A stretch of DNA of 64,000 nt from Tunturiibacter gelidiferens (GTDB lineage Bacteria; Acidobacteriota; Terriglobia; Terriglobales; Acidobacteriaceae): contig NZ_JACHEB010000008.1 of NCBI RefSeq assembly GCF_014201335.1, forward strand, positions 62,001 to 126,000, given 5' to 3'. A program made the position numbers and the translations under genes. The notes beneath the pieces were generated by a model. That model searched no databases and was not told the origin of the DNA. It saw only the letters and a list, made by a program, of their open reading frames with translations. This document shows positions 59,295 to 61,004 of this stretch, piece by piece (the first letter of the stretch is position 1; every line of letters starts with the position of its first letter).

Positions 59295-59523
59295 ATTCGT
59301 AAGACTCCCTTTGCATCCAACCGTCACTCACACCTTCGCGTCATTCACGGTGCGTTCAAACGATCTTCTTTAGTGCTAATCCCGCCACTACCTGGGCCGG
59401 AATCCGCCGAAGACGAAAACATCCGTCCAATCTTCTATTATTCAGCAAAATCACCTCTTATGGTATTCTCCGCGCAACCGCCTTTGGCCTCACATATGTA
59501 CGTCTTTTGGAGGACCCAGCAGA

Positions 59524-60087
59524 ATGAGCACTTACCCACCGACCCTGTCCGCTCTCGCCCCCAAGGCCATCAACTGGTCCATCGCCCTCAGCATTCTGCT
59601 CATTCTTGCTGGTCTCGTCGCCGTCATGATTCCACCGTTCTCCGGCTTGGCCGTAACGCTCATCTTTGCCTGGGCCATGATCGTCAGTGGAATCACCCAC
59701 TTCGTCTTCGCCTTCAAGACCCACACCACAGGCGGCGTGCTCTGGGAACTGCTGGTCGGCGCGATCTATCTCTTTACTGGCGTCTATCTGCTCCTGCACC
59801 CGCTCGACGCCCTCATCGTCCTTACCCTGATTCTCGCCGTCTACCTGGTTTTTGAAGGAATCGTTGAGATCATCCAGTCTTTCCAGCTTCGCCCCCGCCA
59901 TGGCGCCGGCTGGCTTCTCTTCGACGGTGTCATCACCCTGATCCTCGCGATTATGATTTGGCGCTCCTGGCCTGCGAGCACTGTCTGGGTCATCGGAACG
60001 CTGGTCGGCATTAGCATGATCTTCAGCGGCTTCTCCCGCCTCATGCTGTCGCTCGCCGCAAAACGCGCTCTCAATCAGTCACTCTGA
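59524..60087 (+). CDS. HdeD-family membrane protein
   Basis: A 187-residue protein with six TM segments in three helical hairpins, matching the HdeD/DUF308 family: NWSIALSILLILAGLVAVMIPPFSGLAVTL, then WAMIVSGITHFVFAFKTH and LLVGAIYLFTGVYLLLHPL. HdeD aids acid resistance in E. coli at high cell density; the general role in other bacteria is not known. It lies in the 2.4-kb insertion between the GspE and GspF genes, against their direction. A nested inverted repeat follows its stop. Confidence 0.9.
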   Translation: MSTYPPTLSALAPKAINWSIALSILLILAGLVAVMIPPFSGLAVTLIFAWAMIVSGITHFVFAFKTHTTGGVLWELLVGAIYLFTGVYLLLHPLDALIVLTLILAVYLVFEGIVEIIQSFQLRPRHGAGWLLFDGVITLILAIMIWRSWPASTVWVIGTLVGISMIFSGFSRLMLSLAAKRALNQSL

Positions 60088-60106
60088 AAGACCTCCTGCG
60101 CGGAGG

Positions 60107-60237
60107 GCGGTCACTTCGTGACGCGTATACCGGGGGCATCCCATGCGACTAGAGCCCTCCCGCTGGTCGGGATCAAATCCAGTTGCCGACCAACGGGAGG
60201 CCAAGTCGAAGCGGTATATAAGTCACGAAGTGACCGC
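60107..60237. repeat. Nested long inverted repeat (cruciform/foldback element)
   Basis: Three successive arms nest in one 131-base foldback. Outer: GCGGTCACTTCGTGAC (60107-60122) with GTCACGAAGTGACCGC (60222-60237), a perfect 16-bp match. Middle: TATACCG (60126-60132) with CGGTATA (60212-60218). Inner: CCTCCCGCTGGTCGG (60156-60170) with CCGACCAACGGGAGG (60186-60200), one mismatch. The outer arm is itself palindromic. It could be a bidirectional terminator, a REP-type mobile element or a structured RNA. Confidence 0.85.
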
Positions 60238-60263
60238 CGCACGCGCAGTGCGCCTTTATTCTT

Positions 60264-60935
60264 CTAAGGCTGATCCGCATTCAACGAATTGATCAAAGCA
60301 TCCGCCTGCGCCATCGACCCATCGAGGCTCACCATCAACACATCCACATCGGTCGACATCTTCGCCGAAGTCCCCTTCAACGATCCAATTGCCCGCGCAT
60401 TCAGATTGTGTTTCAAAAAAGTCACCTGATCATGAAACGCCGTAATCACAGGCGTCATCCGAGCCTCAGTCTGCCGCATCGACTTGATGTAGTTCGCCTC
60501 ACTCAACCGCGACTGCCGCAGCATCACCGCCGACTGCGCCTTCAGTTTCTTGTTCTCCATCCCATCGATCTCTTTCTGCCACTCCTTGAAGAGATCGTTC
60601 GACACCTGATCGATCGAGTCGATCCGGTTATGCAACTTCTGCGCGCTATCCGCGGCCTTTTCGTATTCGCTATTCAACTTCTTATAATTCTTCTCAAGCG
60701 CTCCCCCCTGAAACCCCGTCAGCGCCTGAAACGACTCCATCGTCGTCTTGATCTGTTCCTTCGCCTGTTGCTGGTCCTTCTTCGAGTCCTTCACCCGCGA
60801 CACAAGGATGTCCCGCTTCTCTTTTCCAAACGTCTTCATCGCCTTGTAGTAGGAGCTGGTACACCCAACCAGCACAATCAGCGGAGCCACCGCCGCCACG
60901 TATCGCAACACCCAACGTCGAGAGATCACAGTCAA
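60264..60935 (-). CDS. DUF2959 lipoprotein
   Basis: A 223-residue predicted lipoprotein: hydrophobic leader and lipobox-like APLIVLVGCTSS, then an all-helical, Lys/Gln-rich body (KRDILVSRVKDSKKDQQQAKEQIKTTMESFQALTGF and YEKAADSAQKLHNRIDSIDQVSNDLFKEWQKEI) typical of DUF2959. The rest is coiled-coil-like and ends with a short helix. The family is uncharacterised. It is separated from the HdeD gene by the foldback element and converges with it. Role unknown. Confidence 0.88.
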   Translation of the reverse strand: MTVISRRWVLRYVAAVAPLIVLVGCTSSYYKAMKTFGKEKRDILVSRVKDSKKDQQQAKEQIKTTMESFQALTGFQGGALEKNYKKLNSEYEKAADSAQKLHNRIDSIDQVSNDLFKEWQKEIDGMENKKLKAQSAVMLRQSRLSEANYIKSMRQTEARMTPVITAFHDQVTFLKHNLNARAIGSLKGTSAKMSTDVDVLMVSLDGSMAQADALINSLNADQP

Positions 60936-61004
60936 CTCATTCCCCCCTGTCAGAGCTTGACGAATTGTAACCTCTCCGCCGAAGATCGAGGCCCAACCGC
61001 GTCG

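Follow-up and report, generated by a model that had tools for sequence, protein, structure and literature searches.

The window, a 64,000-nt stretch of contig NZ_JACHEB010000008.1 from Tunturiibacter gelidiferens, carries an HdeD-type gene (DUF308; 59524 to 60087, + strand) and a convergent DUF2959 gene (60264 to 60935, − strand), both located between the genes for T2SSE (GspE) and T2SSF (GspF). Nearly all of the 176-nt spacer between the HdeD-type and DUF2959 genes is taken up by a foldback element that adjoins the stop codon of the HdeD-type gene. Gene calls and domain matches, including Pfam DUF308, bore out the location given in an earlier sequence-only reading of this DNA, which had placed the element between these two genes and inside the GspE/GspF interval.

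That reading had described a 131-base segment (60107 to 60237) with three nested complementary pairs of 16, 7 and 15 bp and palindromic outer arms. All three pairs were present where described. The outer pair (GCGGTCACTTCGTGAC at 60107 to 60122 with GTCACGAAGTGACCGC at 60222 to 60237) was complementary at 16/16 positions and the second pair (TATACCG at 60126 to 60132 with CGGTATA at 60212 to 60218) at 7/7, but the inner pair (CCTCCCGCTGGTCGG at 60156 to 60170 with CCGACCAACGGGAGG at 60186 to 60200) matched at 14 of 15 positions rather than at all 15. As had been noticed, the outer arm can also fold on its own, into the hairpin GTCAC-GAA-GTGAC. The foldback is far from chance, the RNA fold of the window element having a free energy of −101.2 kcal/mol (z −8.87) and its DNA fold a z of −8.54, with 0/200 shuffles equally stable in either case; its symmetric part is, however, larger than 131 bases and consists of 46-nt arms (60087 to 60132 and 60212 to 60257) with 78% complementarity, which brings the whole element to about 60087 to 60257.

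The arms, the fold and the homologous copies identify this element as two half-units arranged head to head, an inverted dimer. The left half-unit (60087 to 60170, − strand) reads towards lower coordinates and the right half-unit occupies 60186 to 60257 on the + strand; both were delimited by the alignment of full copies, and profile matches at C8:122178-122084 and C8:122178-122257 correspond to 60178-60084 and 60178-60257 of the window. The inner arm of the right half is its first module and was also seen in the core matches, and the alignment places the TATACCG box of the left half (− strand) in a conserved GTATAC region and supports the CGGTATA box of the right half (+ strand). Hairpin H3, with the sequence GTCAC-GAA-GTGAC, lies on the − strand at 60110 to 60122 in the left half and on the + strand at 60222 to 60234 in the right half, as indicated by sequence, pairing and covariation. 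Hairpin H2, for which family covariation is available, lies in the left half at 60092 to 60106, 4 nt past the HdeD stop codon (− strand; CCTCC-TGCGC-GGAGG as read on the + strand), and in the right half at 60238 to 60252 (+ strand; CGCAC-GCGCA-GTGCG). The outer-end hairpin GTCCGGCAGGAC is missing from the window copy. A terminator scan detected a single terminator-like site at the window copy, on the + strand and formed by the right H2 followed by CCTTTATTCT, compared with 0.4 in shuffles; none was found on the minus strand. The bidirectional terminator proposed earlier thus has support here on one of the two strands.

The GspE-HdeD order was compared in related genomes, using the 30 best loci from the 36 genomes that gave a match in a sample of 60. 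HdeD followed GspE in 30/30 fetched loci, and 22 of the 30 were without the element. As the order was retained in 22/22 element-free loci, the element did not bring the HdeD and DUF2959 genes into the GspE-GspF interval, and the earlier suggestion that the insertion had arrived by way of the element is ruled out. The same spacer past HdeD holds an orthologue of the window copy in six genomes (G071, G065, G024, G013, G031 and G018), and the distant G027 (HdeD identity 58%) also has an element there. Absence of the arms in relatives sharing the gene order had been named as a point against the element; the element occupies the same spacer in five species at 94–98% HdeD identity, and is missing in G078, G076 and G077 (74–86%). 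Given its absence in these three, the window copy is not essential.

Half-units and their hairpins

In the genome carrying the window (own genome, 6.18 Mb), a BLAST search with the element gave at least 78 matches in approximately 40 separate places, among 40 scored of 110 first-look candidates. When 2 mismatches were allowed, the 16-nt outer arm occurred at 124 sites against 2 for a reversed control, in line with the REP-like unit envisaged earlier, and the 12-nt hairpin GTCCGGCAGGAC, with which many copies end on the outside, occurred at 64 sites against 1, usually starting 34 nt from the arm start. About a hundred copies were thus present, and no near-identical ones were found, the best pair of full copies in the own genome reaching an identity of 0.91 (20 copies, median 0.73).

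The unit was defined from 19 aligned full copies, 24 partial copies and 122 core matches, among the matches listed. From inside to outside, a half-unit consists of CCGACCAACGGGAGG, a GAA hairpin with GTATACA, H3 (GTCAC-GAA-GTGAC), H2 (with the five-base loop GCGYA) and often H1 (GTCC-GGCA-GGAC). This half-element, in which short local hairpins follow one another in a fixed order, is the real unit of the repeat. Counted by the H3 core, after 4 of the 122 core matches without neighbouring modules were dropped, the own genome holds 22 dimers and 74 single halves, single halves being the commoner form; strictly single halves, with any trace of a second half excluded, number 57, because the H3-core count misses a second half that carries another module. 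Only 3/96 elements fell within called genes, and 3 more lay at locus edges.

The modules of the half-unit are exchangeable between copies. H3' (loop GCGA) stands in place of H3 in one half of the window-copy orthologues of G024 and G013, and H2' (a ten-base stem with a loop close to AGGTCTTC) in place of H2 in 17 units. The CGGGGTCCCC...GGGGTG hairpin was considered as a foreign insertion and rejected, since 17/17 of its matches in the fetched loci fell inside a unit (14 by script, 3 by eye); as a test of exclusiveness this is weak, because most loci were fetched for carrying a unit and a similar hairpin occurs in G080, a genome with no R1 match. The latter, a long H2'-like hairpin (CCGGGACCCCCAGCGAC...GTCGCTGGGGTGG), lies in the spacer past the terminase gene (L404) and possibly belongs to a related repeat family. 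The loops of the family are fixed. Four of them, GAA, GCGA, GCGYA and GGCA, we take to be of the GNA or GNRA-like classes; the fifth is longer and of the AGGTCTTC type.

A plain bidirectional intrinsic terminator that arose locally would suit the convergent genes and the H2-CCTTTATTCT site on the + strand. However, the window copy has about a hundred relatives in the genome and therefore did not arise at this place, the minus strand has no terminator-like site, and a T tract is not general in the family, T making up 29–46% at positions 5 to 9 past H1, where pyrimidines make up 63–75% (n = 292). This explanation is highly improbable, and as an account of the origin it is largely refuted.

In 69 aligned units, 94.1% of cells were paired compared with 84.6% in shuffles, and 88 cells were changed on both sides compared with 22; with the partners slid by 1–3 columns, no more than 54.7% were paired. 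Of the five measures of covariation, two were weaker, namely pairs changed on both sides (7 vs 5.1, reached by 20/500 shuffles) and further pair types (24 vs 18.7, reached by 2/500), and the shuffles ignore the relatedness of the copies. The 69-unit figures include all rows of alignment A1; alignment A2 omits nine of them (two chance-like, one shifted duplicate, six off-register or gapped). Among 173 units from own and related genomes, 5/5 pairs of H3, 4/5 of H2 and 1/4 of H1 beat all 200 shuffles. Stems thus carry compensated changes and loops are constant. Six single half-units folded alone gave z values from +0.31 to −2.09, with no clear gain over shuffles; the evidence for the hairpins is their covariation. 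The left and right halves of one element were as similar (0.703) as halves of different elements (0.706) among 20 elements of the own genome, and so they were among 54 elements of relatives (0.701 vs 0.704). Same-element halves being no more alike than others, an origin of the full element as an in-place inverted copy of one half was rejected, and it is the local hairpins that are conserved, not the long foldback pairing. A structured RNA, another of the earlier proposals, is possible; the compensatory stem changes and strong covariation speak for it, but window positions 59500 to 61000 gave no Rfam match at gathering scores.

The exchangeable modules and fixed loops could also belong to a regulatory RNA module peculiar to the genus. 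Such a module would be a mobile cassette of 3'-UTRs, with hairpin loops that are read by a host RNA-binding protein and modules that are swapped between copies. We regard this as a speculative and rather doubtful proposal; if it is true, about a hundred unrelated mRNAs would be under one 3'-end control.

Genomic position and distribution

Gene neighbourhoods were taken from a simple home-made gene caller, on which the position tests depend. Elements were enriched in convergent spacers both in the own genome (30/92 element sites vs 20/191 element-free spacers of at least 30 nt, p = 1.1e-5) and in relatives (42/143 vs 100/716, p = 2.1e-5), and the enrichment was robust to spacer thresholds from −40 to 60 nt (p ≤ 6.3e-5 throughout). 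In tandem spacers of the own genome, strict single units were oriented with the upstream gene in 30 cases and against it in 4 (p = 6e-6); in relatives the figures were 15 and 9, which is not significant (p = 0.31). A looser definition of single units gave 33 vs 7 and 24 vs 19, respectively. The unit starts a median of 8 nt (n = 46, own genome) or 9 nt (n = 36, relatives) past the co-directional stop codon.

The distribution was searched with a covariance model of H3-H2-H1. The hairpin family was present in 36/60 sampled genomes of the genus, with copy numbers from 0 to at least 103 matches (13 genomes with at least 50, 24 with none). In a class sample of 151 genomes, the last 119 of them given as a summed count, 12/15 inside the genus matched and 0/136 outside it, and in an earlier sample 24/37 inside and 0/24 outside. 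Named among the matches listed were Edaphobacter lichenicola, Granulicella aggregans, Granulicella sp., an Acidobacteriaceae isolate and MAGs. Among the sampled genomes, the family was found only in one genus. The repeat had no match in viral contigs (exact pattern) or in phage and plasmid collections, and spread via phages or plasmids was rejected on these grounds. One genome with only six matches (G081) has three same-direction units within 2.2 kb (C6:402366-404562).

A conserved phage-like cluster was encountered during the survey, at about 128.9–149.8 kb of C2 in the own genome (L376, L377) and at 58–79 kb of C1 in G022 (L368, L369), and was collinear in the five genomes compared. It encodes a terminase large subunit (phrog_2, 2e-25), a portal protein (PF04860, 4e-51) and a head-tail adaptor (phrog_442), and gives a weak sigma-region-4 match; the terminase and portal genes are separated by genes for a HipA-like kinase and a DUF3037 protein. 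The terminase matched in 49/60 genomes of the genus, one per genome except in three and mostly at 61–85% identity, as well as in 11/14 genomes of other genera of the family and two of another family. The cluster is possibly a domesticated prophage or a gene-transfer-agent-like cluster; terminase and portal genes in such genomes are counted as prophages in the excerpt of PMC5900883 consulted. The search placed one stop codon inside the terminase match in L384 (G068), L385 (G001), L390 (G078) and also in G004.

Four genomes in which hardly any other copies occur (G001, G022, G068 and G072; L340, L341, L342 and L343) have a strong element in the spacer past the terminase gene. This spacer was considered as the founder locus and rejected; an element was present there in 12/30 fetched loci and missing in the high-copy G027, and in nine further low-copy genomes the copies lie at different places, so that it is only a shared old position. 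In G077 (L386), a GTCCTG remnant, perhaps a deletion scar, stands where relatives carry the full element, and L405 (G006) and L398 (G014) show apparent tandem duplications of the C-terminal coding end of the terminase in the same spacer.

Inheritance and movement

Further element positions were common to relatives, with flanks mostly about 80–90% identical; as the relatives were chosen for carrying the element, these shared positions do not measure a retention rate. In 400 kb of G013, ten elements were found, one of them the window-copy orthologue. Four of the ten have a collinear element-free site in the own genome and/or in G071, and five are without two matching flanks in the fetched stretches. 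The best identity among 54 full copies of relatives was 0.92. Together with the corresponding value of 0.91 in the own genome, the element-free collinear sites indicate that movement happened and does not look recent.

The earlier likening to a MITE was not supported. If the element were a MITE, a non-autonomous DNA transposon that has terminal inverted repeats and depends on a DDE transposase, this would account for the matching palindromic ends of full elements (62 rows, 154–237 nt) and for the collinear element-free sites, and one of the 62 elements is directly flanked by a 6-nt match. However, there was no general excess of 2–9 nt flanking duplications in the 62 elements and no evident target duplication at the four diverged element-free sites, leaving a MITE with target duplication unsupported. 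Many copies consist of one half and so lack a second end, no near-identical copies were found, and no transposase-like gene shared between loci was recognised in the ORFs of 36 loci, where, repeat-overlapping ones aside, two ORF pairs were 26–28% identical. A MITE is therefore very unlikely.

The main rival of a hairpin array active at mRNA 3' ends is a selfish, non-functional mobile DNA of REP/REPIN type, whose hairpins would be kept because a HUH transposase, now lost or unrecognised, read them as single-stranded DNA, and whose location would reflect tolerance. That REPs are found past genes may mean no more than that insertions do little harm there. For HUH elements, missing target duplication is no argument against them. 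The patchy copy number within one genus, the head-to-head dimers and the collinear element-free sites fit such an element, and TnpA-REP has been proposed to mobilise REP sequences (PMC6006769, in the portion consulted). Against it, PF01797, the Y1 transposase domain of RAYTs, was not found in the own genome; it was present in 49/60 genomes of the genus and missing in 4/13 high-copy genomes (at least 50 matches) and in 4/24 zero-copy genomes. Y1_Tnp genes of the genus were fetched with their surroundings in 32 stretches, none of which carries a unit, so that a RAYT-driven family is unsupported; the best full-copy identities stay at the values given above, and tolerance alone leaves the 30 vs 4 orientation in tandem spacers of the own genome unexplained. 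We consider a purely selfish repeat possible, though on the unlikely side.

Interpretation and comparison with known repeat systems

Taken together, the observations suggest a genus-restricted, REP/BIME-like mosaic repeat lacking a known transposase, which is probably transcribed, forms an array of hairpins at 3' ends and causes some termination. We infer this function with reasonable but restrained confidence, and it is the most likely activity because of the position, direction and covariation of the units. The upstream gene would be transcribed into the unit, which would then give the mRNA a 3' end folded into several consecutive hairpins; these may block 3' exonucleases and cause weak to moderate termination, and a dimer between convergent genes would serve both strands. 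Past spread within the genus may have depended on an enzyme supplied in trans and no longer recognisable, and copies would now mostly be inherited at fixed positions and diverge. With more than a hundred units in the own genome, no recognisable transposase and a preferred direction past genes, the family offers a test case for repeats as mobile junk or as shared 3'-end control elements.

The literature on repeats in Acidobacteria, Edaphobacter and Granulicella yielded no description of this hairpin family in titles and abstracts. RepRanger palindromes of Granulicella aggregans (PMC12306157) provide palindrome counts for a genome of the group; the part of that source consulted holds totals and no matching family. 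The closest likeness is to the REP, BIME and REPIN sequences of the GTAG and CGTC super-families, which, in the excerpts of PMC3733652 used here, lie past coding regions, in spacers of unidirectional and of convergent genes, are often dimers and plausibly act as RNA. The present family shares with them the high copy number, the extragenic palindromic hairpin units, the head-to-head dimers and the location past or between unidirectional or convergent genes. The same excerpts define REPs by an unpaired GTAG or CGTC at the foot of one stem of 5–13 or 8–9 bp. By eye, 60 aligned units had no unpaired tag of either kind, since GTAG was confined to H2 and CGTC to the foot of H1, where it is paired, and their stems were of 4–5 bp. 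Each half here is thus a row of several hairpins with 4–5 bp stems, not one palindrome of 20–40 bp, with exchangeable modules and fixed loops and without the CGTC-type stem of 8–9 bp (cf. PMC3733652, as excerpted). A cognate RAYT gene flanked by the repeats was found neither in the own genome nor in the 32 Y1_Tnp stretches of the genus; CGTC-class REPs also occur without a dedicated transposase (PMC3733652, same excerpts).

The TIRYT-associated TIR repeats of Acidobacteria, as described in the excerpts of PMC3733652, are from the same phylum and are likewise inverted repeats, some of them dimers; they differ in that the stretches around Y1_Tnp genes of the genus hold none of the present units. 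TIRYT-related TnpA proteins are assigned to Y1 subclass 2.1 and class 3 in the consulted portion of PMC6006769.

BIMEs of E. coli are mosaics of palindromic units in alternating orientation, and E. coli has a cognate TnpA-REP. The present family is likened to these BIMEs, which are named in the consulted portion of PMC6006769, by description and not by sequence; it shares the mosaic of palindromic units and differs in the cognate TnpA-REP. To REP-like repeats it adds a family in soil Acidobacteriota that belongs to one genus among the sampled genomes and has exchangeable hairpins with covarying stems. As two features that define REPs proper, the tag and the cognate RAYT, were not seen, it is called a REP/BIME-like mosaic repeat, not a REP.
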